NCBI GenBank assembly: GCA_034521975.1 | Contig: JAXHLR010000010.1 | Span: forward strand, 62,001 to 126,000 | From: Acidimicrobiales bacterium | GTDB taxonomy: Bacteria; Actinomycetota; Acidimicrobiia; Acidimicrobiales; SKKL01 | Length of the DNA stretch: 64,000 nt | Direction: 5' to 3' | In this document: piece by piece, positions 3-61,734 of the stretch | Layout of the letters: the number at the start of each line of letters is the position of its first letter | Numbering within the stretch: the first letter of the stretch is position 1 | The notes under the pieces: generated by a model | Seen by the model: the letters and a program-made list of their open reading frames with translations, nothing else | What the model was told of the DNA's origin: nothing | The model's database searches: none | Translations under genes and position numbers: made by a program

Positions 3-710
3 ATCCCCGGCCTCGACTACCACCGGGTCGACCCCGACGGGTCGATTCACATCGGTGCGCTGTGCCGCCACGTCGACCTCGAGCAGTCGACGACGTTGGC
101 CGACGCACAGCCGGTCCTGGCGGCGGTTGCGCCGTTGGTGGCCGACCCCATCGTGCGCACCCGGGGCACCCTCGTGGGCTCGCTCTGCCACGCCGACCCC
201 CAGGGCGACTGGGCGTCGGCCATGGTGGCCCTCGACGGCCAGGTCGTGGCCCAGGGCCCGCAGGGTCGTCGCTCGATCCCCGTCGCCGACTTCGTCGCCG
301 GACCGTTCCAGAACGTGCTCGCCCACGACGAGGTGGCGGTCGAGGCCGTCGTCCCCGCCCCCGCCGGCACCCCGGCGGGCGGGTACCTCAAGCTCGAACG
401 CCGCATCGGCGACTTCGCCACCGCCGGTGTCGCGGTGGCCCTCGACCTCGTGAACGGGTCGGTGTCCCGGGCAGGTGTCGGCCTCACCGGTGTCGGCAGC
501 TCCACCATCGCCGCGACCGACGCCGCGCAGGCGCTGGTCGGGGCGGCACTGTCGCCCGACGCGATCAACCGTGCCGCCGACCTCGCGGCCGAGGCGGCCC
601 AGCCCCGCAGCGACCACCGCGGCAGCGCCTCCTACAAGCGACAGGTCGTGCGCACCTTCGTGGTGCGCATCCTCACCAACGTGCTCGAATCCGACGAGAG
701 GGCAGCCTGA
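3..710 (+). CDS. coxM: CO dehydrogenase FAD-binding medium subunit, 5'-truncated
   Basis: This is the C-terminal part (about 235 residues) of the FAD subunit of a molybdenum hydroxylase; the N-terminus lies off the left edge. The frame is open from base 3 and reads [13 protein letters not shown], followed near residue 55 by [14 protein letters not shown], the FAD-pocket motif of the CO dehydrogenase/xanthine dehydrogenase FAD family. The subunit carries electrons from the CoxS iron-sulfur clusters to FAD and then to the respiratory quinone pool. The stop overlaps the coxS start (TGATG), and the M-S-L order is that of form I CO dehydrogenases. The assignment as CoxM rather than another hydroxylase subunit rests on the form I active site in the neighbouring large subunit. 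Confidence 0.9.
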
Positions 711-1269
711 TGACGAGTCTCTTCTCGGAGATCTCCCCCGAACCCGCGGCCGATGTCCCGGTCCGGCGCATCACCGTCACTGTCAACGGTCAACGCCGCA
801 GCGCCGATGTCGAGCCGCGGTTGCTGCTCGCCCACCTGCTCCGTCAGGCCTTCCGCCTCACCGGCACCCACACCGGCTGCGACACCACCAACTGCGGTGC
901 GTGCACCGTGTTGTACGACGGTCAACCGGTCAAGAGCTGCACGATGCTGGCCGTCCAGGCCGACGGTCACGAGGTGACCACGGTGGAAGGGCTGGCCGGG
1001 GCCAGCGAGCTGCACCCCGTCCAGGAGGGCTTCCGCGACGAGCACGGCCTCCAGTGCGGGTTCTGCACCCCCGGGATGATGCTGGCCGCCAAGGCGTTGC
1101 TCGACCGCAACCCCGACCCCACCGAGGACGAGGTGCGCTGGGCGCTGTCGGGCAACCTCTGTCGTTGCACCGGCTACCAGAACATCGTCAAGTCGGTGCT
1201 GTGGGCGGCGGACAAGATGCGCGGACCCGACACCGGCGGTGGAGGCGACCGACACGACGAGGAGCAGCC

Positions 1270-1273
<4 letters not shown>
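710..1273 (+). CDS. coxS: CO dehydrogenase small [2Fe-2S] subunit
   Basis: This 187-residue protein carries the two [2Fe-2S] clusters that move electrons from the molybdenum centre of CoxL to the FAD of CoxM. Plant-ferredoxin-type cysteines are visible at 57, 62, 65 and 77 ([10 protein letters not shown]...C), and the second, alpha-helical domain has the pairs C116/C119 (CGFCTPGM) and C151/C153 ([10 protein letters not shown]). All eight ligands are present. The ATG at 710 overlaps the coxM stop, and the end overlaps the coxL start by four bases, so the three subunits should be translated in stoichiometry. The N-terminus is about 20 residues longer than the ferredoxin fold needs. Family assignment is firm. 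Confidence 0.95.
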
Positions 1274-3650
<2,377 letters not shown>

Positions 3651-3654
<4 letters not shown>

Positions 3655-4604
3655 ACGAGCAGCGGTCCGACGGCTGGGGCATCGTCGAACGGGCGGTCGA
3701 GCTGGCTCGCCGTGGCGAGGAGTTCGCGCTGGCCACCGTCGTGTGGCGCCAGGCACCGACGTCGGGCCAGCACGGCTCGCGGGCCATCGTGACCCGCTCG
3801 GGCGAGCTCCACGGCTGGATCGGTGGAGCCTGCTCCGAGCCGGTCCTCATCCGCGAGGCACAGCGGTCGCTGGCCGATCGAGAACCCCGGCTGCTGGTGC
3901 TCGGAGCCCCGGACCAGTTCGGCGATGTTCCCGAGGGGATGACGTCGATCGCCATGGCCTGTCAGAGCGAGGGAGCGATGCAGATCCACATCGAACCGGT
4001 GCAACCCGCACCCCACCTCGTGGTGGTGGGACGATCCCCGATGGCTCACACCCTGGCCGACATGGCCGGGGTGCTCGACTGGTCGGTCGACATCGTCGAC
4101 GCCCCCGACTTCTCACCCTCGACGGTCGATCAGCGCTCGATGGTGGTCGTCGCCACCCAGGGCCACGGCGACGAAGAGGTGCTGGAACAGGTCGTCGCCG
4201 CCGATCCCGCCTACGTGGGGCTGGTCGCCTCGCACCGCCGGGGCGAGGCCGTGCTCGGCTACCTCGCCGACCGCGGCGTCCCCTCCGACGTGCTCGAACA
4301 GGTCCGGGTGCCGGTCGGCCTCGACCTCGGTCACACCAGCCACCGCGAGATGGCGGTCGCCGTGCTCGCCGAGATCGTGCAGCTGCGAGCAGCAGGCGAG
4401 CTCACGCCCGCCGACGCTGGTGCCGCTGCCGTGGTTCGCCCGGCCGAGGCCATCGACCCGGTGTGTGGCATGACCGTCACCGCCGACGCCTCGGGCCGGC
4501 CCTTCGAGTACCAGGGCACCACCTACTACTTCTGCTGTCCCGGCTGCCGGGCGGCGTTCGAGAAGGATCCCGAAGCCCACTTCACCCCGGGGGCCCGATG
4601 CTGA
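3651..4604 (+). CDS. coxF: XdhC/CoxF-like maturation factor with C-terminal YHS domain
   Basis: This 317-residue protein starts at a GTG whose GTGA overlaps the coxL stop. The N-terminal XdhC/CoxI-type region (about 5-115, with LATVVWRQAPTSGQHGSRA and GWIGGACSEP) is followed by a Rossmann-like region (about 121-245, HLVVVGRSPMAHTLADMAG) typical of proteins that insert or sulfurate the molybdenum cofactor. Residues 268-310 add a YHS domain (DPVCGMTV, then YYFCCPGCRAAF; Cys272, 295, 296 and 299), a fold linked to binding of copper and other soft metals. Because form I CODH needs both sulfurated Mo and Cu, a Mo- plus Cu-handling factor is an attractive inference. The symbol follows operon position and family; the actual role is not shown by sequence. 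Confidence 0.8.
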
Positions 4605-5191
4605 TCACCAACGACTTCGAGGTCGCCGAGCCCGCCGACGACGTCTGGCGGTTCTTCGACGACATCCCGCAGGTCGCGGCATGCCTGCCCGGCGCCGAGC
4701 TCAGCGACCAGACCAGCGAGAACAGCTTCGAGGGCGGGGTCGCCATCCGGCTCGGTCCGGTCCGGCTCGAGTTCGGCGGCACCGCCACCATCACCGAGCG
4801 CGACGACGCCAACCGCCGCATCGTCGTCGACGCCTCCGGGGCCGACGTGAAGGGCCGGGGCCAGGCGGCGATGCTGCTGACCGCCACGGTCGCCAACACG
4901 TCGAGCGGTTCGCGGGTCGAGGTGAGCATCGACCTGACGCTGTCGGGTGCGGCCGCCCAGTACGGGCGGGGCATGGTCTCCGACGTCACCTCGGTGCTGA
5001 TGGACGACTTCGCCACCAACATGACGAACCGCGTCGATGCCATCCGCCGTGGCGTCTCGCCCGATCAGATCGACACGGTCAAGCCGGCCGGTGGTCTGGT
5101 GATCGCGTTCCGCGCGGCGCGCATGGCCCTGGCCCGGGTCTTGGGGCGGTTCTTCCTTCCGTACCGTCCACCCGCCGCCACCAACGCCTGA
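4598..5191 (+). CDS. coxG: CoxG, membrane-associating CODH partner
   Basis: This 197-residue protein has an SRPBCC (START-like) fold of the CoxG family: MLITNDFEVAEPADDVWRFF, then a conserved CLPGAEL at about 30, and IDLTLSGAAAQYGRGMV at about 108-124. A C-terminal tail (about 160-190, rich in Ala, Leu, Arg and Phe, with VLGRFFLPY) looks like an amphipathic membrane-binding helix. In mycobacteria CoxG recruits CO dehydrogenase to the membrane and handles menaquinone for electron delivery, and the same job is likely here. It overlaps coxF by seven bases and sits just before a run of small membrane proteins, supporting a membrane-coupling role for the downstream set. Confidence 0.88.
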   Translation: MLITNDFEVAEPADDVWRFFDDIPQVAACLPGAELSDQTSENSFEGGVAIRLGPVRLEFGGTATITERDDANRRIVVDASGADVKGRGQAAMLLTATVANTSSGSRVEVSIDLTLSGAAAQYGRGMVSDVTSVLMDDFATNMTNRVDAIRRGVSPDQIDTVKPAGGLVIAFRAARMALARVLGRFFLPYRPPAATNA

Positions 5192-5203
5192 CGAGGAGCT
5201 GTC

Positions 5204-5470
5204 ATGACCCTGTGGGGACTCGGAAACCTGATCCTGCTTCTGGCGGTGGTGCCGGTGCTGGTGGCGCTGCTCAACCGAGTGCTGGCTGCGCTCGAACGGA
5301 TCCGGGCCGCCTCCGACGACATCCTCGCCGGTGGGGTCGCCCTCATCGGCGAGCTCGACGACACACCCGAGCTGCTGGCCACCACCGACGCCACCATCCA
5401 CGACGTATCGGTCGGCGCCGTTCGCTACGCCGGCTCGGTCGCCAAGCTCCTGCCACCGAAGGAGGACTGA
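5204..5470 (+). CDS. Small single-helix membrane protein 1 of cox operon
   Basis: This 88-residue protein of unknown function begins with a hydrophobic helix (about 3-24, LGNLILLLAVVPVLVALL) followed by RVLAALERIRAASDDILAGG and a helical tail ending in charged KED. It starts 12 bases after coxG behind GACGAGGAG and is followed after three bases by the next gene, so it should be in the coxMSLFG transcript. The layout (one N-terminal membrane helix, then an amphipathic cytoplasmic helix) recurs in the next four genes. I do not recognise a named family; the tail resembles the generic coiled region of DUF948-type proteins. A membrane-anchoring or scaffolding role for CO dehydrogenase is inference from context. 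Confidence 0.75.
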   Translation: MTLWGLGNLILLLAVVPVLVALLNRVLAALERIRAASDDILAGGVALIGELDDTPELLATTDATIHDVSVGAVRYAGSVAKLLPPKED

Positions 5471-5473
5471 ATC

Positions 5474-5701
5474 GTGCCCGCCGCCGCCATCGTGACCCTG
5501 GTGCTCGCCACCCTGATCATCGCCACCGCCGCGCTCGGTCTCATCCGGGTCATCTTCCACTTGCGGGCGATCCACGCCACCCTCGGCCAGGTCGTCGGGG
5601 GTGTGCAGGTGATCGCCGACAAGACCAGCACCGTGCCGACCGTCGTGGCATCGGTCAACGAGAGCCTGAAGCCGGTCCGCGACTTCAGCGAGTCGATCTG
5701 A
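5474..5701 (+). CDS. Small single-helix membrane protein 2 of cox operon
   Basis: This 75-residue protein uses GTG as start, three bases after the previous stop, with GGAGG visible at the end of the preceding gene. Residues 3-26 form a hydrophobic helix (AAAIVTLVLATLIIATAALGLI), then a basic RVIFHLRAIHATL and a helical tail with QVVGGVQVIADKTSTVP and SVNESLKPVRDF. The tail lines up loosely with those of small proteins 3 and 4 (spaced I, L, V and T positions). Its TGA overlaps the ATG of the next gene, indicating translational coupling. Function is unknown; membership of the cox transcription unit is clear from spacing. Confidence 0.72.
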   Translation: MPAAAIVTLVLATLIIATAALGLIRVIFHLRAIHATLGQVVGGVQVIADKTSTVPTVVASVNESLKPVRDFSESI

Positions 5702-5982
5702 TGGGGGTCTCGATGTCGAGCCTGGTGCTGGCGTCCGAGTCGATCACCGGATGGGTGGTCGGCTATGTCATCGGTGGGGTGGTGGTGTTGGTGGTGGTGG
5801 CGCTGGTGGTACCGATCCTGCTGCTGGCCCGGTCGATCGGCACCGACGCCACCCGCATCAACGACGGGCTGGGTGCTGCGGTGCACAACACCGCGGCCCT
5901 CGCCGAGCTCAAGACGACGAACGAGTCCGCCGAGGCCATCGTCGCCGGCCTCCGGCGCGGACGCACCCGGTTGGGAGGCTGA
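5701..5982 (+). CDS. Small single-helix membrane protein 3 of cox operon
   Basis: This 93-residue protein starts at the ATG overlapping the previous stop; a second in-frame ATG lies four codons later. A strongly hydrophobic, valine-rich segment (about 19-43, GYVIGGVVVLVVVALVVPI) is followed by ARSIGTDATRINDGLGAAV and HNTAALAELKTTNESAEAIV, then a basic RRGRTRLGG terminus. The post-membrane part aligns with small protein 4 at RSI, the spaced I...L, N-T-A and the A..I/V..GL ending, so the two are probably paralogues. No family name is recognised. The basic tail would favour a cytoplasmic C-terminus. Confidence 0.75.
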   Translation: MGVSMSSLVLASESITGWVVGYVIGGVVVLVVVALVVPILLLARSIGTDATRINDGLGAAVHNTAALAELKTTNESAEAIVAGLRRGRTRLGG

Positions 5983-5984
5983 GG

Positions 5985-6275
5985 ATGGTCGTACTGGCAC
6001 TGACGTCTACGCAGGAGAACCTGTGGTGGGGAGCGATCATCGCCGGGGCGGTCGTGGTGATCGCCGTTGCGGCGTTGCTCACGATCCTGGTGATGCTCGT
6101 CCGCTCGATCGAGCAGCGGGTCGATCTCATCCGCTCCACGCTCGACCAGGCGGCGGAGAACACCGCCGACACAGCGCTCATCGCCGAGACCGCCCAGCGG
6201 GTCGAGGCGGTGCTCAACGAAGGGCTCGAGCACCACCTGTTCCTCGGCCGGGTCCTCGAGAAGGTGCGCTCATGA
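5985..6275 (+). CDS. Small single-helix membrane protein 4 of cox operon
   Basis: This 96-residue protein starts two bases after the previous stop, with GGGAGGCTGAGG as ribosome-binding region. An N-terminal segment LALTSTQENLWWG leads into a hydrophobic helix (about 18-41, AIIAGAVVVIAVAALLTILVM), then VRSIEQRVDLIRSTLDQAAENT and ETAQRVEAVLNEGLEHH, a clear amphipathic heptad-like helix. It aligns with small protein 3 over the helix after the membrane. The stop overlaps the next start (ATGA). Unknown function; likely part of the membrane arrangement around CO dehydrogenase given operon context. Confidence 0.75.
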   Translation: MVVLALTSTQENLWWGAIIAGAVVVIAVAALLTILVMLVRSIEQRVDLIRSTLDQAAENTADTALIAETAQRVEAVLNEGLEHHLFLGRVLEKVRS

Positions 6276-6649
6276 CCACGCTCGTCGTCCTCTCGGTCGT
6301 CGTCATCGTGGCGCTCGTCGCCGTGTTGGCGGCCTACCTGTTCATCGTCGGCTCCCAGCTCACCCGCGTCGCCGGCAAGCTCGAGGAGTGCGCCGAGACG
6401 GTGTGGACCATCAAGGCCAACGCCGAGCCGATCGCACCCGGTGTCGCACACATCAACCACACCGGCGGTGTCGTCGCCGGCGCGCTTCCCCTGCTGTTCA
6501 ACATGGCCGAGGGGATCGTCACCGGCGCCACCTACGAACCGACACCCGAGTCGGCACAGCGACCCCCGGCCCGACCCGCCATGGGCACCCGCCGCAGCCG
6601 TCTCACCGAGGCCGTCGGCTACCGACCCGACGGCGCGGGCAGCTCATAG
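6272..6649 (+). CDS. Small single-helix membrane protein 5 of cox operon
   Basis: This 125-residue protein is the last gene of the cox plus-strand unit and overlaps its predecessor by four bases. Residues 2-26 form the membrane helix (TLVVLSVVVIVALVAVLAAY), followed by GSQLTRVAGKLEECAETVW, a second moderately hydrophobic stretch (about 66-82, GVVAGALPLLFNMAEGIV) and a Pro/Arg-rich tail. It shares the single-helix-plus-coil plan of the preceding four proteins but is longer. I recognise no family. A convergent-gene hairpin lies 25 bases downstream. Confidence 0.75.
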   Translation: MTTLVVLSVVVIVALVAVLAAYLFIVGSQLTRVAGKLEECAETVWTIKANAEPIAPGVAHINHTGGVVAGALPLLFNMAEGIVTGATYEPTPESAQRPPARPAMGTRRSRLTEAVGYRPDGAGSS

Positions 6650-6674
6650 CGTCAGCGCGGAGCGCTTGCCCGAC

Positions 6675-6696
6675 AGCTCCCCCCAAACCGGGAGCT
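6675..6696. terminator. Hairpin between convergent cox units
   Basis: AGCTCCC and GGGAGCT form a 7-bp stem around an 8-nt loop in the 59-bp gap between the plus-strand cox operon and the GIY-YIG gene on the minus strand. There is no clear U-run, so termination is a moderate inference based on position. Confidence 0.45.
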
Positions 6697-6708
6697 CACC
6701 TATCGATC

Positions 6709-7155
6709 TCAGCTGCCGTCGTGTCCCGAGGGGTCGCGCCCGGTGGTGAGGGGTCCGGTGGTGGGGGCCTCGTAGCTGCCGATCCACTCGTCCCGCCAGG
6801 CCGGGTCGTACTGCTCGGGGTTGCAGCTCGGCTGGTACATGGCGATGAGCTCGCGGACGATCTGCTCGCGGTGTGCGGGCAGGCCGCCAGGCACCTCGTA
6901 GGTGCAGACGTGCAGGTTGAACCGGTCGCCGGCCCGCTTGGTCCAGCAGGAGGCTTGCGGGTGCTTGAACGGGAACCGCTCGCGCGACAGGTCGTCGCCG
7001 TGACCGACGTAGATCACCGCGAACCGCTGGGGCTTGGACTCGGGATCGGGCCGGGTGAGGATGCCGTACACCCCAGGCGACGCGGGCGGTGTCCAGCCGG
7101 CGAGCACCCGGGGCCCTTCGAAGGGGTAGCCGGCGAGCGACCCGAGCCGGATCAT
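6709..7155 (-). CDS. GIY-YIG-fold protein
   Basis: This 148-residue protein has the GIY-YIG signature in degenerate form: PGVYGILTR near residue 28 (GIY element) and FAVIYVGHGDDL near residue 46 (YIG element), followed by a basic helix with SRERFPFKH. Members of this superfamily are nucleases or nuclease-like DNA-binding proteins. A later glutamate-containing helix (REQIVRELIAMYQPSCNP) could hold the metal-binding residue. The ATG at 7155 overlaps the upstream gene's stop by four bases and gives a compact single-domain protein; the longer open frame upstream is not needed. It is the last gene of the coxDE-side operon, an unexpected neighbour with no obvious role in CO oxidation. Confidence 0.7.
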   Translation of the reverse strand: MIRLGSLAGYPFEGPRVLAGWTPPASPGVYGILTRPDPESKPQRFAVIYVGHGDDLSRERFPFKHPQASCWTKRAGDRFNLHVCTYEVPGGLPAHREQIVRELIAMYQPSCNPEQYDPAWRDEWIGSYEAPTTGPLTTGRDPSGHDGS

Positions 7156-7454
7156 CCCGGCTCCTCGGGGTCGACCAGGTCGTCGAGCTCGCCGATGACC
7201 TCGGCCCTGGTGGCGGGCCAATCCGGTAACCCGGCCTGTTCGGCCGCCCGGAGGAACGCGGGCACGGCGACCTCGACCGCCTCGTCGGCCGTCGCCGCCT
7301 CGACGATGACCTGCGCGCCGTAGCTCATGGTGCCGATGCCGCTGGCGATGCCGCCCATGGGGGCGACGGCGTCGGCCAGCGCAACGACCTCGTCGTGGGT
7401 CACCACCCGGTCGCCCTCGGCCACCACCGACACGCTCCACCTCATCGTCTCCAT
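7152..7454 (-). CDS. Conserved-looking small alpha/beta protein
   Basis: This 100-residue soluble protein of unknown function reads METMRWSVSVVAEGDRVV at the start, has an Ala/Val-rich middle (GGIASGIGTMSYGAQVIVEA) and an acidic end. The alternation of strands and helices suggests a small ferredoxin-like or ACT-like fold, but I cannot name a family. The ATG at 7454 is chosen because GAGGTGAG lies five bases upstream; a GTG at 7463 overlapping the coxE stop is a possible alternative. It is translationally coupled to the GIY-YIG gene and follows coxE, so it belongs to the same operon. Confidence 0.65.
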   Translation of the reverse strand: METMRWSVSVVAEGDRVVTHDEVVALADAVAPMGGIASGIGTMSYGAQVIVEAATADEAVEVAVPAFLRAAEQAGLPDWPATRAEVIGELDDLVDPEEPG

Positions 7455-7459
7455 CGCGC

Positions 7460-8579
7460 TCACCTCAGCTCGGGCAGCATCGTGGCGAACTCCTCGAGGC
7501 TGCGCAGGTTGTGGCCGGAGACGATGATGTCGATGTGGGGAGCAGCGACCATCATCGCGAGCGATGTGGGCCGGAACTCGGGGTCGTCGCCCTTGTGGGG
7601 GTTCATCCACACGACCCGGTGGCTGAGCCGGTGGAGGCGCTCCATGGCCCCCGCCAGCACCGCAGGGTCGCCCCGATCGAGCCCGTCGGAGCAGATGACG
7701 ACGATCGCGCCCCTGCTGGTGCCTCGCCGCCCCCACCGGCGCACGAACTCGTCGAGCGAGTCGCCGATGCGGGTGCCGCCGTCCCAGTCGAACACCTCGT
7801 CGGCGGCGCGGGCCATGGCGTCGTCGGCGCGCCGCCGGTCGAGCGCCTTGGTGATGCGGGTGAGTCGGGTGCCGAAGCAGAAGACCTCGACGCGGTCCGA
7901 TGCCCGTCGGGCCGAGTGGGCGAACTGCAAGAGGTTGCGCGAGTAGTCCGACATCGACCCCGACACGTCGAGGATCAACACGACCGGGCGGATGCGGAGC
8001 TTGCGGCGAAGCCACAGGAGGTCGCCCGGCTCGCCGTGCATCCGCATGGTCTCGCGCGCCATGCGGCGGGCGTCGAGGCGTCGACCGGAGCGGGTGGGCG
8101 CGCTGCGCCGGGTTCTGCGCTGGGGTGGCCGCAGCCGGGTCCGGGCCATGATGCGCCGCAGCGCAGCCAGCTCCTCAGGGGTGCAGGCCGAGAAGGCCTT
8201 GTTCCTCCACACCTCGGAGCCGGAGGCCACGAGGCCGAGCTGTGCTTCGTCCTCCTCGGAGGACTCGTCGCCCGGTTCGGAGTCGGGGATCTGCAGCACC
8301 GCCTCCCGGCCGCTCACGCTGTCCGTGGGGGTCTGGAGCACATCGGCCCCTGGGGCGTCCTCGCCGAGGAAGAAGTGGCGGAACACCCGGTCATAGACCG
8401 TGATCTGGTCGCGGCGGGTCACCAGGGTGGTGCGCCCCGCCCAGTAGAGGTCGACCAGGTCGGTGGGGTCGAGGGCGGCAACCGCGGTGCAGTAGGTCAC
8501 CACGTCGCCCGAACCGATCGCCATGCCGGCCTCGCGCAGCTCGTGGCCGAACTCGACGAGCAGATCGGAGACGGCGAGC

Positions 8580-33228: not shown

Positions 33229-33369
33229 CTAGGCCGGGCCGTCGGGGGGCTCGCTGAGCGAAAGGTTGCCGTTGCGGGCGGCGACGTCGGGGGCGTCGGA
33301 GCGGCTGTCGGGGTTGGTGAGCGGGGTGACGCTGGGCCGGGCCCAGACCCGCTTGGGTGCATGTGTCAT
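33229..33369 (-). CDS. RiPP-type precursor peptide C
   Basis: This 46-codon gene encodes MTHAPKRVWARPSVTPLT followed by NPDSRSDAPDVAARNG and a distinct tail NLSLSEPPDGPA. It is the third of three tandem paralogues; residues 1-34 are almost identical to peptide B (V/T at 8, A/V at 10, A/T at 26 differ). The W-x-R-P-S-V stretch matches the aromatic-x-x-P-x-hydrophobic pattern that PqqD-like domains recognise in lasso-type leaders. AGAGG lies upstream of the ATG with about six bases spacing. Synonymous conservation of the frame across three copies shows it is translated. The modified product and core boundaries are unknown. Confidence 0.75.
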   Translation of the reverse strand: MTHAPKRVWARPSVTPLTNPDSRSDAPDVAARNGNLSLSEPPDGPA

Positions 33370-33377
33370 CGAAACCT

Positions 33378-33518
33378 CTACGTGTCGACTGGGCTCAAGA
33401 CCACGCCGTTGTCGTTGCCGTTGCGGGCGGCGACGTCGGGGGTGTCGGAGCGGCTGTCGGGGTTGGTGAGCGGGGTGACGCTGGGCCGGACCCAGGTCCG
33501 CTTTGGTGCGTGTGTCAT
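33378..33518 (-). CDS. RiPP-type precursor peptide B
   Basis: This 46-residue peptide reads MTHAPKRTWVRPSVTPLT, NPDSRSDTPDVAARNG and tail NDNGVVLSPVDT. It shares everything up to ARNG with peptides A and C and differs only at the C-terminus. There are no cysteines, so lanthionine or thioether chemistry is unlikely; Asn, Asp, Ser, Thr and Pro dominate, giving targets for hydroxylation, phosphorylation or nucleotidylation. It lies nine bases after peptide A's stop and eight bases before peptide C's start. The upstream ribosome site is weak (AGAGAG), so translation may depend on coupling. Confidence 0.75.
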   Translation of the reverse strand: MTHAPKRTWVRPSVTPLTNPDSRSDTPDVAARNGNDNGVVLSPVDT

Positions 33519-33528
33519 CGGATTCTCT

Positions 33529-33657
33529 CTATTTAACGTTGGGCTCGCCCGAGATGCCGTTGCGGGCGTTGACGTCGGGGGTGTCGGAGCGGCTGTCGGG
33601 GTTGGTGAGCGGGGTGGCGCTCGGCCGGACCCAGGTCCGCCTCGTGGTGTTCGGCAT
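33529..33657 (-). CDS. RiPP-type precursor peptide A
   Basis: This 42-residue peptide is the first of the array: MPNTTRRTWVRPSATPLT, NPDSRSDTPDVNARNG and tail ISGEPNVK. It is the most divergent copy at its N-terminus but keeps TWVRPS, TPLTNPDSRSD and the ARNG junction. AAGGAG is ten bases upstream of the ATG, the strongest ribosome site in the array, and the promoter and palindrome lie just before it. The PhyH-type dioxygenase is divergent from it. No homologous family is recognised by eye. Confidence 0.75.
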   Translation of the reverse strand: MPNTTRRTWVRPSATPLTNPDSRSDTPDVNARNGISGEPNVK

Positions 33658-33679
33658 CGAGTGGCACTCCTTCGTCAAG

Positions 33680-33694
33680 GTGATCGGCGATCAC
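33680..33694. promoter_or_regulatory. Palindromic operator candidate
   Basis: GTGATC-GGC-GATCAC is a perfect inverted repeat placed immediately downstream of the -10 box of the peptide array promoter, where a bound repressor would block initiation. It also lies in the upstream region of the divergent dioxygenase gene. Confidence 0.45.
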
Positions 33695-33721
33695 ACTATC
33701 CTCATCCGTGCCGGCTGTCAC
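33695..33721 (-). promoter_or_regulatory. Promoter candidate for precursor-peptide array
   Basis: On the minus strand GTGACA (33716-33721) and GATAGT (33695-33700) are spaced by 15 bases, resembling -35 and -10 elements with a slightly short spacer. Transcription would start within the palindrome and give a leader with the AAGGAG ribosome site. Confidence 0.4.
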
Positions 33722-33751
33722 GGCCTTGTTGTGCGGTACCCGAGGAGCGCC

Positions 33752-34828
33752 ATGCCAACGCCACGTCGATATGTCGAGCTCGCCGCCGCAGCGGCTCGGG
33801 ATCTGCGTGGGTGGCGCCGAGGCCGCCCCTCGACTGGCAACACCTACATCGCCATGCGGCGCGCCCACCGGCTCACCGCCGGCTGGTCGAGCGTCGCCGC
33901 CCGACAGCTCCTGCAGAAGGCTCCCGGGTCCCCCGACCGCCTTGCGCCGCTCGATCGACCCCGCCTCGACGACGCCGGCGCCCGCTCGCTGGCCGACCTG
34001 CGGCGCGACGGCATGGCGATGCTCGAACCGGTCCTGGCGCCCGACGAGGTGGCGAGCCTGGTCGACTTCGCCCAGCGAGGGCCGGCCCGGGGCAGGCTCC
34101 CCTCCGGAACGATGCAGGCGGGGACCTATCGAGACCTGGCGGGATCCGCCAGCGCCGTGTTCCTCGACGGCACCTTCGCCTGGGCACGTCCCGAGGTGCA
34201 GCGGATCCTGGCCGACGAGCGGCTCTGGGACCTGGCCCGGGCCTACTTCGGGCTTGTCCCCGTCGTTCAGCCACCCCAGATCTACTGGTCGTGCGCCGCT
34301 GCGCCCGACAACGAGACCCTCGCCCCGAACCTCGCCCGCAACTTCCACTGGGACTACGACGGCGTCGGCGGGCTGCGCCTGCACCTCTACCTCACCGACG
34401 TCGACGCCAGTGCCGCACCGATGCAGTACGTGGTCGGCAGCCATCGTCCCGGGGCCCTGCGCACCCACGAGCTGCGCCACGCCGACGACGGCACCGCGTC
34501 CGAGTCCGCGCTCGACGCCCTGGGTCTGGTCGAGCGGCGATCGATCACCGGTCCTGCGGGCACCACCTTCATCAGCGACTCGACCGGTCTGCACCGCGCC
34601 ACCCGCCCGACCGGGCGCGACCGGCTGTTCCTCGTGTTCTCGCTCCGGGCCGGATCGTTCGCCGGCTACTACCACCGCCGTCGGCGGGTGCCGGCACGCG
34701 ACCCCCGCTTCGCCGCGGCCCTCGCCGCCGGTCGTCCGGAGCTGTCGCTGTTCTCCGCCGCCGATCCCGACGAGATGGTGGTGACCCTCGACGAGGAGAC
34801 CGCCGCCGCGGCCGCTACTGGGGGGTGA
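33752..34828 (+). CDS. PhyH-type Fe(II)/2-oxoglutarate dioxygenase
   Basis: This 358-residue protein has a phytanoyl-CoA dioxygenase-like double-stranded beta helix. His199 and Asp201 in NFHWDYDG and the distal His281 in TGLHRATRPTGRDR form the iron site, with a following arginine for 2-oxoglutarate; LRLHLYLTDVDASAAPMQYV and VVGSHRPGA are typical PhyH segments. The start has GAGGAG five bases upstream. Because three precursor peptides are divergent from it and a PqqD-like protein converges on its 3' end (14-bp overlap), hydroxylation of the peptides is the natural inference; a small-molecule substrate cannot be excluded. Confidence 0.82.
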   Translation: MPTPRRYVELAAAAARDLRGWRRGRPSTGNTYIAMRRAHRLTAGWSSVAARQLLQKAPGSPDRLAPLDRPRLDDAGARSLADLRRDGMAMLEPVLAPDEVASLVDFAQRGPARGRLPSGTMQAGTYRDLAGSASAVFLDGTFAWARPEVQRILADERLWDLARAYFGLVPVVQPPQIYWSCAAAPDNETLAPNLARNFHWDYDGVGGLRLHLYLTDVDASAAPMQYVVGSHRPGALRTHELRHADDGTASESALDALGLVERRSITGPAGTTFISDSTGLHRATRPTGRDRLFLVFSLRAGSFAGYYHRRRRVPARDPRFAAALAAGRPELSLFSAADPDEMVVTLDEETAAAAATGG

Positions 34829-35090
34829 CCGCGCCGATGTCGGTGAGCTGGGCGAGGCAGGCCTCGACCTCGCCGCGGCAGGTGTCCTCGTCGACCTCGA
34901 ACTGCTCGAGCAGCGCGTCCACCACCTGATCGGTGGTCTTGGGCTCGGCCAGCGCGTCCCAGATCGCGGCGGCGGTGACGTTCAGCGAGTGGTAGCGCAT
35001 GTCCGACGGTGAGAGCACCACGGTCTCACCGTCGACCTCGGCACTGGCCGCACTCGGCGCTCGTCGATAGGTGGGCTCGGCATCGGACAC
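34815..35090 (-). CDS. PqqD-like RiPP recognition element protein
   Basis: This 91-residue protein has the PqqD/RRE plan: a three-stranded N-terminal wing (SAEVDGETVVLSPSDMRYHSLN) cut here as EVDGETVVLSPSDMRYHSLN, then AAAIWDALAEPKTTDQVVDA and a helix with EACLAQLTDIGAV. PqqD-type domains bind leader peptides and present them to modifying enzymes. The LNxTAAAIWD motif is characteristic. The GTG at 35090 is chosen because TAGGCT lies seven bases upstream; a TTG at 35108 lacks such support. It overlaps the dioxygenase end and follows the kinase-like gene on the same strand. Confidence 0.88.
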   Translation of the reverse strand: MSDAEPTYRRAPSAASAEVDGETVVLSPSDMRYHSLNVTAAAIWDALAEPKTTDQVVDALLEQFEVDEDTCRGEVEACLAQLTDIGAVTPQ

Positions 35091-35097
35091 GGCGTGG

Positions 35098-35103
35098 AGC
35101 CTA
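35098..35103 (-). promoter_or_regulatory. Leaderless-type -10 box for PqqD-like gene
   Basis: TAGGCT on the minus strand overlaps the last codons of the kinase-like gene and ends seven bases before the GTG at 35090, allowing separate transcription of the PqqD-like gene. Confidence 0.5.
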
Positions 35104-36009
35104 TCCAACCGGTCCGGTCCGGGCGGCGGTGACCAGGTCGCACACCGCGTCGAGCGTGTCTGCGCCGCTCAGGCGGGTGATCTCCACCGTGGGAAGTGCC
35201 GATGCCACCGAGGTCGACCACTCGAAGAAGGCTCCCGATCGGGGACCGAAGGACGAGAGTCCCGAGTTGTTGGCCAGCCGGACCACCCATCGCAACCGTT
35301 CGGCGCCGGTGATGTCGCGGACGACGACAGGCCGTTCGGCTGTTGGGGCCACCTCGGGGACGATCGGGTTCGGCCACTCGTCGGGTGGGTCGGGGTCGTG
35401 GCAGATCAGGGTGACGAGGCGGTCGATCGGCACCGGACCGCTCGCTTCGGCCAGGTCGACGGCGAACTTGCTGAAGGGGCCCTCGCCCAACTCCTCGCCC
35501 GGGTCGACGATGCCGAGCCTGGCCACCGCCTCGTGGCTCAGGTGCACCGGCCGGGGGAAGGGACGAGCCGTGGGCCGTCCGTCGACCAGGTCGACGTGGA
35601 CGACGTCGTCGATGAGCAGGGTCGCACCCCGCTCGTGGGCGAGCGTCGCCACCGTCGTGCTCTTGCCGGCGCCGCTGTGGCCGCCGATCACCACGTGCTC
35701 GTCGCCGATGCGAACCAGCGACCCGTGCAGGTTGAAGGTGCCGGCGTGCAGCATCAGAATCCTGGTCGCCCAGCCGTAGAGCAGCGGCGCGACCAGGGAG
35801 CGGTCCACGTCGTCGGGGATCTCGACGACGATCTCGTCGGTGCCGCGGATCATCACCCTCAGGTCGAGCAGGTCGGCCCAGACCGTGTCGGGGGTCGCCC
35901 ACGCCTGGGTCCCGATGGCGACCGCGTCGGCCGAAGGTGGGTCGACCGGTGCGTACCGGACCGTGGCGCCCAGCACCTCGTCGGGAAGCTCGGGAGTCGA
36001 GGTCGTCAT
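35101..36009 (-). CDS. HPr-kinase-like protein of RiPP cluster
   Basis: This 302-residue protein has a P-loop GGHSGAGKST (109-118) within a region matching HPr kinase C-terminal domains: LHGSLVRIGDEHVVIGG, then ATLLIDDVVHVDL with paired aspartates at 134-135. N-terminal residues lack the usual HprK regulatory domain. Similar HprK-like proteins occur in some lasso peptide clusters such as paeninodin, where one phosphorylates the precursor's C-terminal Ser. Here a role in phosphorylating one of the Ser/Thr residues of the peptides is inference. The ATG at 36009 diverges from the nucleotidyltransferase. Confidence 0.83.
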   Translation of the reverse strand: MTTSTPELPDEVLGATVRYAPVDPPSADAVAIGTQAWATPDTVWADLLDLRVMIRGTDEIVVEIPDDVDRSLVAPLLYGWATRILMLHAGTFNLHGSLVRIGDEHVVIGGHSGAGKSTTVATLAHERGATLLIDDVVHVDLVDGRPTARPFPRPVHLSHEAVARLGIVDPGEELGEGPFSKFAVDLAEASGPVPIDRLVTLICHDPDPPDEWPNPIVPEVAPTAERPVVVRDITGAERLRWVVRLANNSGLSSFGPRSGAFFEWSTSVASALPTVEITRLSGADTLDAVCDLVTAARTGPVG

Positions 36010-36077
36010 GGCGCGTTGCCGGCTTCGGAGCCGGTCTCGGGGGCCGTCGTCGGGATCAGCACACCGAGATGATGCCC

Positions 36078-36083
36078 TACGCT
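36078..36083 (+). promoter_or_regulatory. -10 box candidate for nucleotidyltransferase
   Basis: TACGCT is followed after eight bases by an ATG opening an 8-codon ORF (36092-36118) whose TGA overlaps the nucleotidyltransferase ATG. GGAG lies before the real start, so the transcript probably has a short leader of about 25 nt. Confidence 0.45.
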
Positions 36084-36114
36084 CGGGCCCGATGCCGACC
36101 ACCGGGCGGAGACC

Positions 36115-37302
36115 ATGACGGACACGGGCCCGCAGGAGCCTCCCTCGGCGCTGAGCGGTGAGACCCGGCACCTCCTCGACGCGGTCCGTGTCGGACTCGG
36201 TCTCGACCCGTCCGGAACCGATGCTCCGGTGTCGCTCGGGCTCGTCCGGCGTGCGGCGCGCCAGGGGGTCGCGGCTCCGGTGGTGGCCGCGGCTCGGATG
36301 CTGGGCACCGCCGACGAGGAGACCGCCCGGACGGTCGCCGACCTGTCGCGCTCCCAGGCACTCGGTGGCCTCCGCGCCCTGGTCACCACCAGGCAGCTGG
36401 TGGAGCTGTTCGATCGGGCGGGGATCCCGGTCCTGGTGGTCAAGGGGGTCGCCTTGGGGGCCCAGACCGGCCGCGAGCCGGCGGAGCGCCACGGCGTCGA
36501 CGTCGACCTGCTGGTCCGACCCGACGACCTGCTGGCAGCCGACCAGGTCCTGGCGGCGGCCGGCTACCGGGCGAACGAACGCACCTGCCCGCCCCTCGGC
36601 GACGACCAGCGCAGCCGGTTCCTCCGCTGGAGCGCCTACGAGCGCAGTTACTCGCGGCAGGGCGCCCACGCCGATCTGCACTGGCGGCTCACCCCTGGCC
36701 ACCTGCCCGGCCTGGCGGCCGAGGCCGTCATGGACGACGCGGTGACCGTCGACGTCGGCGGAACCCCGGTCGCGACCCTCGATCCCGACGCCGCGCTGGC
36801 CCACACGGTGCTGCACGGCGCCAAGGACTACTGGCTCAGTCTGCGATCCACCGTCGACGCCCATCTGCTGGTCACCGTCGCCGGGGCGGGCTGGGAACGC
36901 GCCCGTGAGCTGGCGGCGGACAGTCCCGCGATCGCCGAGGCTCGACTCGGCGTCGAGGTGCTGTGCGGAGCGACCGATCTTGTGGCGGACCGAGCGAGTC
37001 GCCCACGTCGGCCCTTGGCACAGCCGACCCCCCGACGCCGATGGCTGGACGGGATCGAGGGCCGTGCCGAGCTCCCGGTCGGGGGAGGGCCGCCTCCCGA
37101 CGGGTGGGTCCCCTACCTCCGCCGCCGGTGCTCGGTGACGCCCGGCGTCGCCTCGACGGCAGCGATCGTGGCGAACCTGTTGGTCACCCCCGACTCGCTC
37201 GCCAGGTCGCAGGCGAGGCCATCGCTGTGGTGGGTCGACGCCCTGGCCCAGCGGCCTCGACGGATCCTCACCCGCGCCCGGCGGCGTGGCGAGCGCTCCT
37301 GA
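36115..37302 (+). CDS. PF14907-type nucleotidyltransferase family protein
   Basis: This 395-residue protein has the NTP_transf_5 signature: PVLVVKGVALGAQTG (about 108-122), then RHGVDVDLLVRPDDLL, the metal-binding D-x-D, and HADLHWRLTPGH further on (about 184). These proteins are frequent companions of HPr-kinase-like and PqqD-like proteins in RiPP, notably lasso, clusters; their reaction is not well defined, nucleotidylation of a peptide or carrier being assumed. C-terminal part is basic (RRILTRARRRGER). It is divergent from the kinase-like gene across 105 bp and converges on the DUF4349 gene. Confidence 0.82.
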   Translation: MTDTGPQEPPSALSGETRHLLDAVRVGLGLDPSGTDAPVSLGLVRRAARQGVAAPVVAAARMLGTADEETARTVADLSRSQALGGLRALVTTRQLVELFDRAGIPVLVVKGVALGAQTGREPAERHGVDVDLLVRPDDLLAADQVLAAAGYRANERTCPPLGDDQRSRFLRWSAYERSYSRQGAHADLHWRLTPGHLPGLAAEAVMDDAVTVDVGGTPVATLDPDAALAHTVLHGAKDYWLSLRSTVDAHLLVTVAGAGWERARELAADSPAIAEARLGVEVLCGATDLVADRASRPRRPLAQPTPRRRWLDGIEGRAELPVGGGPPPDGWVPYLRRRCSVTPGVASTAAIVANLLVTPDSLARSQARPSLWWVDALAQRPRRILTRARRRGERS

Positions 37303-59589: not shown

Positions 59590-61734
59590 ATGCCGTCCCA
59601 TCCTGAGCTGCAGGCCGAGCAGGCCTACATCGACCATGCCTACGAGTCGCTGGAAGCGAATCGTCTGTCGGCGGTGCGCCTCAAGGAGATGGTCGAGGTG
59701 GGCAAGGGCGGCACCGAGCAGGCCCGGTGGGAGCGCGAGGTCATCAACGACAACATCATCCACCGCCTCCAGCAGCTGCACGTGGGGGACGCCTCGCTGG
59801 TGTTCGGCCGGATCGACCACGACCCCGACCACGGCGACGACTCGTTCTACATCGGTCGGGTGTCGGTGTCGGGCCCCGACCGCGAACCGTTGGTGGTCGA
59901 CTGGCGGGCGCCGGTGGCCGAGGCGTTCTACCGGGCGACGCCACTCCAGTCGCTGGGACTGATCCGGCGCCGGCACTTCGCCACCCGGGGGCGCACCCTC
60001 CTCGGCATCGAGGACGAGCTCTTCGGCGATGCTGCGGTGGCCGCCATCAACGGCGACGGGCCCACGATCTCGGGGCATGGTGCGCTGATCGCCGCGCTGG
60101 AGACGGCCCGCACCGGTCGTCTGGGCGACATCGTCGCCACCATCCAGGGCGAACAGGACGAGATCATCCGCGCCGAGCTGCCCGGCATCCTGGTCGTACA
60201 AGGGGGGCCGGGCACCGGCAAGACGGTCGTGGCGCTGCACCGGGCCGCCTACCTGCTCTACACCCACCGGTTCCCGCTCGAGGGCCAGGGCGTGCTGGTC
60301 GTCGGGCCCAATCGGCTGTTCCTCAACTACATCGAGCAGGTGCTCCCCTCGTTGGGCGAGGCGGGCGTCGAGCTGGCAGTGCTGGCCGATCTCATCGACG
60401 AGGTGCGGGTGGCCGGCTCCGACCGCGGTCTCGCCGCGAGGGTGAAGGGCGATCTGCGCATGACCGGGTTCGTCGCCCGGGCGGTGCGCGACCGCGAGCG
60501 ACCCCTCCGGGCACCGTTGCGGGTCGGGTACGGGCTCACCCGTCTGTCGATGACGGTCGAGGAGAGCGCCCAGATCGTGAACGAGGCCCGCCGCCGCTAC
60601 CGGTGGCACAACCCGGCCCGCAAGTACGTCGAGGCCCGGGTCTATGAGGTGCTGGCGGGCAGTGGCCCCGAACAGCTCGACCCCGACACGGTGCGCCAGC
60701 GGTTGAAGGCCACGATCGAGCTGCGCGAGGCGCTCGACTGGATGTGGCCGTTGCTGTCGCCGGCGGAGCTGTTGCACGACCTGTTCGGCTCGAAGGCGCT
60801 GTTGCGCAACGCCGCGCAAGGTCGGCTGCCCTCGGAGGTCCGTCGTCGCCGCGCGGCTCGCACGGGCGGGAATGCGGGCGACGCCGGAGGGCTCACCGAC
60901 GACGAGTGGCAGTCGCTGCACCGCCCCCGGTCCGATCACGCCTTGTCGGTCATCTGGACCACCGACGACGTCGCGTTGCTCGACGAGGCCCGAGCGTTGC
61001 TCGGTCCTCGCAAGCGGTCCCACGAGCTCGAGCCCCGCACGTACGGCCACATCGTGGTCGACGAGGCCCAGGACCTCTCTCCCATGGCCTTGCGGACGTT
61101 GGGACGCCGCTCGCTCAACGGGTCGATGACCATCGTCGGCGACATCGCCCAATCCACCGGGGCGTGGGCCCACGACGACTGGGACGAGGTGCTCGAACAG
61201 CTCCCCCAGAAGCGGCCGTCACGCCGGGCCGAGCTCACCGTCGGCTACCGGATTCCCGCTCCGAACATGGCGATGGCGACCCGGGTGCTGCGCGTCGCCG
61301 CTCCCGAGCTCACACCCCCGCGGTCGGTGCGCCAGGACGGCGATCCCCCGCGGATCATCGCGACGGCTGGGGGCGGTCGGTCGCTGGCCGATGCGGTGGT
61401 CGATGCCGCGCTCGACGAGGTCGATGCCGTGGGCGCGGGAAGCGTGGCGGTGATCTGTCCGCACACCCTGGTCGACCGGTTGTGCACGGCGTTCGAGGAG
61501 CGGCGGGTCGAGTACGGCCGAGCGACCCGCCACGGACTCGATTCGCAGATCACGGTGGTGGCGGTGGGCATCGTGAAGGGGCTCGAGCTCGACGCATCGG
61601 TCGTGGTCGAGCCGGCCGCCATCATCGAGGACGAGGCCCAGGGCCTGCGGTCGCTCTATGTGGCGCTCACCCGCTCCACCAAGCGACTGGCCGTGGTCCA
61701 CGAGCGGCCCTTGCCCGAGTTCCTCGCCGAGTAG
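59590..61734 (+). CDS. HelD-type RNA polymerase-associated ATPase
   Basis: This 714-residue protein is a UvrD-like helicase-fold ATPase of the HelD type. It has an N-terminal helical region ([20 protein letters not shown]) which in HelD enters the RNA polymerase secondary channel, the family motif [15 protein letters not shown] (about 100-114), Walker [21 protein letters not shown] (20), Walker [16 protein letters not shown] and C-terminal [13 protein letters not shown]. HelD removes stalled or nucleic-acid-bound RNA polymerase; actinobacterial homologues (HelR) can give rifamycin tolerance. Whether this one does is unknown. A very strong hairpin lies after it. Confidence 0.9.

Follow-up and report, generated by a model that had tools for sequence, protein, structure and literature searches.

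What does a bacterium make with three short tandem peptide genes whose neighbours encode a phytanoyl-CoA dioxygenase-type (PhyH) oxygenase, a PqqD-like protein, an HPr kinase-like (HprK-like) protein and a PF14907 nucleotidyltransferase? This question is raised by positions 33229-37302 of the window, by which we mean the whole 64,000-nucleotide stretch analysed here, taken from the genome of an Acidimicrobiales bacterium (G000, 98.7% complete). A preliminary description, made from the letters alone, proposed a new leader-guided pathway for a ribosomally synthesized and post-translationally modified peptide (RiPP) other than an ordinary lasso peptide. We found all of these genes in place with their catalytic residues intact, and we consider it probable that they form a cyclase-free RiPP pathway guided by a RiPP recognition element (RRE), an actinobacterial relative of the phosphorylated lasso peptides and of the linear polyphosphorylated peptides (LPP; lppA/K/B/S/D/N, Paenibacillus alginolyticus, 2026) (PMC13381572).

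The five-family set is not a chance grouping, as it recurs, precursor included, in a second genome. A kinase search across 395 genomes of the class revealed one close relative, G364, from the same order and another family (locus L031/L050; public contig JAKOUY010000031.1), and the conserved neighbourhood that the preliminary description had proposed as a check was found there with all five families. Between the window and G364, identities are 45% for PhyH, 38-42% for the nucleotidyltransferase, 37-41% for the HprK-like kinase and 53% for the PqqD protein. In the window, the three peptide genes (leftward) are followed by PhyH (rightward), PqqD and HprK (both leftward) and the nucleotidyltransferase (rightward); in G364, the order is PhyH and the nucleotidyltransferase (leftward), then HprK, the peptide and PqqD (rightward). 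The window flanks (an enoyl-CoA hydratase and DUF4349) are unrelated to those of G364 (EamA and a Cys/Met pyridoxal phosphate enzyme). Since the order is shuffled and the flanks are unrelated, the common content of the two loci is exactly the five families.

The set is patchily distributed, since neither PhyH nor the precursors nor the PqqD profile found a match in the same-genus genome G441 or in the same-family genomes G344 and G460. A scan of the genome collection with the kinase alone found nothing, and when 397 genomes of the order were searched with a precursor profile, all matches scored low and lacked the neighbourhood. Around PhyH relatives elsewhere (at most about 36% identity), the 1.5 kb retrieved to either side contained none of the cluster genes. 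By score, which is what the kinase profile search of 396 genomes of the phylum covered, rather than neighbourhoods, there was no further member of the window type, and the best new matches to the PqqD profile among 99 relatives (G424 and others) were not PhyH clusters. Taken together, the cluster is a real, rare variant of the LPP/phosphorylated-lasso kind.

The three window precursors are tandem paralogues with 66-84% mutual identity, and G+C content at third codon positions (GC3) is 0.91-0.95 in all three genes. Purine-rich DNA lies upstream of each, most clearly as gaaggag before the peptide 3 ATG. G364 has one precursor only, MDQVIKQEWDVPAAEALTDVESRADRPDVTMRNGQTSVPA, which matched the window precursors by tblastn with an E value of about 5e-7 (17 kb searched). 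All four peptides have the motif W..P....LT...SR.D.PDV..RNG, and 14 of the first 34 positions are invariant (M1, W9, P12, L17, T18, S22, R23, D25, P27, D28, V29, R32, N33 and G34); beyond RNG, the tails are wholly different. Ser22 is the sole invariant serine, with Thr18 as the only other invariant hydroxyl residue. The leader motif W9xxP12 (WxxPx[V/A]), likewise invariant, has the lasso-type Y/WxxP form. Discrete RREs bind a [Y/W]xxPx[L/V/I/F/A] leader motif (PMC13381572), and because W9xxP12 fits it, the leader-guided part of the preliminary description is strengthened.

The PqqD protein itself points in the same direction. Its best PDB match is 9x90, a lasso PqqD (E 2e-8), followed by 5v1u, TbiB1 (E 2e-6), and by 9x8z, a PqqD family protein (E 0.0025). 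Compared by residues with the LPP study (PMC13381572), 9x90 appears to be PbaB1, a WxxP-binding RRE, and by the same reasoning 9x8z appears to be LppB. Asn43 of the window protein aligns with LppB Asn33, which anchors the leader proline (PMC13381572), and an Asn is present here in both loci. The true start of the PqqD gene is likely the GTG near 35090, from which the predicted product would begin VSDAEPTYRRAP, resembling VSHPPRYRRAP in G364.

As the family scores of PhyH and HprK are marginal, both proteins were checked at the residue level. The PhyH iron ligands H199-x-D201...H281 and R291 are intact in the window and conserved in G364; the nearest PDB profile match, ectoine hydroxylase EctD, is weak (E 0.006), and an AlphaFold model from two sequences was uninformative (pLDDT 38.5). 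In a profile alignment, the kinase P-loop (109-119), H95 and D134/D135 align with the catalytic His and Asp-Asp of HPr kinase 1jb1. No PDB relative of the nucleotidyltransferase was found by sequence.

How these proteins might work together is suggested by two described systems in which HprK and a nucleoside triphosphate (NTP) transferase act jointly: LPP, where the substrates are RRE-bound linear peptides (PMC13381572), and pseudomycoidin, where they are lasso peptides (PMC8498205). In LPP, an HprK-like kinase polyphosphorylates Ser near the core start of the RRE-bound linear peptide, and an SpI peptidase cuts off the leader (PMC13381572); in pseudomycoidin, a nucleotidyltransferase adds hexoses to the phosphate on the lasso peptide (PMC8498205). 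In the pathway that we infer, from binding through the sites and order of the modifications to leader removal and the role of the product, the PqqD protein would hold the three precursors via W9xxP12 and present the invariant LT...SR.D.PDV..RNG stretch to the enzymes. By analogy, the HprK-like kinase would add one or more phosphates to a hydroxyl side chain, most likely that of Ser22, and the PF14907 enzyme may then transfer a nucleotidyl or sugar group onto that phosphate. PhyH would hydroxylate a residue in the invariant stretch, the candidates being Asp25, Pro27, Asp28 and Asn33. A protease encoded outside the cluster would remove the leader, and the products would differ through the variable tail after RNG.

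Several points count against this pathway. The family matches are marginal for PhyH (just over the cut-off) and HprK (below it), and the window PqqD has Glu80 (Asp in G364) at the position of LppB Asp70, which binds Tyr (PMC13381572). The peptides lack a terminal Ser, the site that lasso kinases use, and neither a leader peptidase nor an exporter was recognised in the cluster. The nucleotidyltransferase step is the weakest by analogy, as no activity could be detected for LppN, the NTP transferase of LPP, when it was expressed heterologously (PMC13381572). The PhyH-type set is seen in only two species: a scan of GTDB r220 (84,980 species) with the precursor pattern, which is degenerate, gave one true match in a release that may omit the window's own genome. 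Two other matches in that scan were rejected as chance, as no cluster homologues surround them and no short gene fits.

The lack of an exporter would also be consistent with the oxygenase, the nucleotidyltransferase or both acting on another molecule, such as a polysaccharide or lipid, with the peptides serving as regulators or carriers and not as a secreted product, and in other loci of the class PF14907, HprK and PqqD genes do occur close to glycosyltransferases (L077, L078 and L035). We regard this as improbable, as the pairing of an RRE with a WxxP leader and the 14 tightly conserved residues favour the peptide as the enzymes' substrate, and neither cluster is flanked by glycosyltransferase, lipid or polysaccharide genes. 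The window genome itself carries two of those PqqD/HprK-like loci near glycosyltransferase-like genes, L077 (G000:C3, 3013-4535) and L078 (G000:C2, 3694-4930), the latter adjoining a small protein with RRTFVKRVAIGAAFATPVVSSFSMSG.

Is the RRE-guided pathway nevertheless a lasso pathway? The lasso protease B2 (PF13471) is absent from the entire window genome and from G364, which makes an ordinary lasso system unlikely. By tblastn, no lasso cyclase lies beside the cluster in the window or in L031, and the three weak Asn_synthase (PF00733) matches in G000 are all on other contigs. On both the conserved neighbourhood and the missing cyclase/protease pair, the preliminary description withstood the refutation that it had proposed, and its reading is largely right; lasso membership was rejected. 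In the precursors, Thr is absent at the usual penultimate-leader spacing (W9+15 is Ser/Ala24), with the leader/core boundary not fixed, and by inspection there is no obvious G/A/C...D/E ring pattern common to all four.

The lasso-type RRE and leader motif would also fit a decayed or split lasso cluster, in which former lasso precursors persist with lingering tailoring genes, and the kinase tree adds to this. Among the 39 HprK domains in this tree, the kinases of the window and G364 pair up (support 98/88), and their clade joins those of G095 and G177 (98/95), two genomes whose kinase genes belong to real lasso clusters: Asn_synthase, a sulfotransferase and an ABC transporter are found there, and B2 gives a match on the same contig. 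Yet no reading frame is broken, and catalytic residues as well as the post-leader motif have been kept across the two families; together with the absence of B2 from both genomes and of the Thr and ring pattern, this makes decay unlikely. Given the kinase grouping, we favour descent of the RRE-guided pathway: the window set probably derives from a lasso-type module, its RRE and kinase retained, ring closure lacking and an oxygenase present. In the lasso-type cluster of G095, one open frame (L032, G095:C227, 272-2077) fuses the sulfotransferase and the HprK-like kinase, which are separate genes in G177 (L033). In L173 (G418:C65, 796-1282), a PqqD gene follows a tandem pair of lasso-looking precursors whose leaders are long (YEAPALSFHGSVGQHT...GDLTFSG).

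A second kinase clade (100/99) comprises kinases of clusters from the same class in which RRE, HprK and nucleotidyltransferase genes lie beside JmjC/Cupin_8 oxygenases and tandem precursors of repeated Y..P modules, a recurrence that speaks for the RRE-guided pathway. These three clusters, L139, L102 and L081, each have RRE, HprK, PF14907 and two JmjC/Cupin_8 oxygenases, and their precursors are tandem repeats of Y.[ARP]P.[VI]..[RHQ]..[VI]...L modules, eight of them consecutive in L139. PF13471 gave no match in G119 or G032 and one below-cut-off match in G064, away from the cluster. Since the PhyH-type and JmjC-type kinases form separate clades, the oxygenase-plus-kinase design appears to have at least two origins, as far as the root position and long branches of the tree allow. 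Tentatively, and as a possibility that we would not yet call probable, the two types may represent an undescribed actinobacterial RiPP class in which one short linear peptide is the shared substrate of an RRE-guided kinase, a nucleotidyltransferase and a 2-oxoglutarate oxygenase; it would have arisen at least twice, the PhyH type from a lasso-like kinase lineage and the JmjC type in another, and its products would be phosphoryl-nucleotidyl or phospho-glycosyl, and hydroxylated.

An HprK of the JmjC-type clade also adjoins one tiny peptide each in L136 (G340), L082 (G087) and L138 (G094) (MDYAAPKIESRAEVKGLMKGRGGHHGGGYR, MKYSAPKIKTRSAVKGLMGSWGGGGGHNGGGGGYR and MTYESPRVVDREPLVGLLIYKDIGGGMGSPEFEYPS, respectively), and another is found in L137, at the start of G032:C33. 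An S24-type peptidase-like protein is present in L136 and L137, which may be LPP-like sets outside Bacillota.

Table 1. Genes of the window cluster and the JmjC-type clusters compared with it.
Feature	Coordinates	Strand	Remarks
Precursor peptide 1, MTHAPKRVWARPSVTPLTNPDSRSDAPDVAARNGNLSLSEPPDGPA	33229..33369	-	46 aa; motif common with G364
Precursor peptide 2, MTHAPKRTWVRPSVTPLTNPDSRSDTPDVAARNGNDNGVVLSPVDT	33378..33518	-	46 aa; motif common with G364
Precursor peptide 3, MPNTTRRTWVRPSATPLTNPDSRSDTPDVNARNGISGEPNVK	33529..33657	-	42 aa from ATG at 33657; first in tandem; motif common with G364
PhyH-type Fe(II)/2-oxoglutarate oxygenase	33752..34828	+	PF05721 E 1.3e-4, just over Pfam cut-off
Discrete RRE, PqqD family	34815..35108	-	PF05402 E 6e-18
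HprK-like kinase	35101..36009	-	PF07475 E 1e-6, below gathering score; TIGR04352 E 2.5e-7, below cut-off
PF14907 nucleotidyltransferase	36115..37302	+	PF14907 E 6e-37; active-site stretch KG...R.GVDVDLLV conserved
JmjC-type cluster L139 (G064:C36:9000-22000)	533-7350		
JmjC-type cluster L102 (G032:C33:105000-115235)	3125-7782		
JmjC-type cluster L081 (G119:C54)	3-5855		

Elsewhere in the window, ARAGORN called a 95-base tRNA-Glu (ctc) at 60393-60487, which is unusually long for a tRNA-Glu.

With five gene families in about 4 kb and short precursors, the set is a practical system for studying the function of PF14907 nucleotidyltransferases, and, judging by the tree, lasso-type modules may give up ring closure and gain oxygenases, which would have happened more than once.

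The combination of PhyH, HprK, PqqD and nucleotidyltransferase was not found described in the open-licence literature, a weak negative. The legend to the YcaO-TfuA clusters of a 2021 thioamide survey names a stand-alone lasso-type PqqD along with a gene for a phytanoyl-CoA dioxygenase, and a 2025 RRE survey reports JmjC proteins in RiPP-like contexts. The HPr-rel-A system (NCBIfam TIGR04352/TIGR04353) likewise pairs an HprK-related kinase with a PqqD-related chaperone, but the window matches are weak and below cut-off (kinase 30.1/200 bits, PqqD 24.2/35 bits). Canucin-type lasso peptides share a 2-oxoglutarate oxygenase and an RRE-guided peptide, but the Fe/2OG hydroxylase CanE hydroxylates a C-terminal Asp before lasso formation (PMC8498205), whereas the window oxygenase is PhyH-type and lacks lasso machinery around it. 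Paeninodin/pseudomycoidin-type lasso peptides, which are phosphorylated and phosphoglycosylated (PMC8498205), share HprK-like kinase and nucleotidyltransferase tailoring, a discrete RRE and a WxxP leader; they differ in having B2 and a cyclase, precursors ending in Ser and no such oxygenase.

Of the described systems, LPP comes closest. Both have a discrete RRE, an HprK-like kinase and an NTP transferase, 1-3 short precursors that begin with an aromatic-xxP leader and vary at the C-terminus, and no macrolactam cyclase. With the core trio shared and the cyclase absent, the window set could be a true LPP member that draws on an SpI peptidase and an exporter encoded in other parts of the genome and has the oxygenase as a local accessory, and the LPP-like sets of the same class with an S24-type peptidase near HprK (L137) would be in keeping with this. 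We consider it unlikely, and LPP membership was rejected. The cluster has no SpI peptidase or MsbA-like exporter, and archaeal-type SpI (TIGR02228) gave no match over the cut-off genome-wide and two sub-threshold matches on another contig; the precursors carry WxxP and W..P....LT...SR.D.PDV..RNG, in contrast to the YxxPxVLxHQxIxFETxxS of LPP; the RRE is nearer to PbaB1 and TbiB1 than to LppB; and the kinase groups with lasso-cluster kinases, not with those from LPP-like clusters in this class. LPP was moreover called restricted to Bacillota by its authors (PMC13381572), while the window set, with a PhyH oxygenase added, is in Actinomycetota. The novelty proposed in the preliminary description therefore divides in two: the cyclase-free logic of RRE, HprK and NTP transferase had been anticipated by LPP, whereas the oxygenase-bearing variant stands as new. 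It extends to the actinobacteria a design described so far only in Bacillota and adds to it a third class of modifying enzyme.

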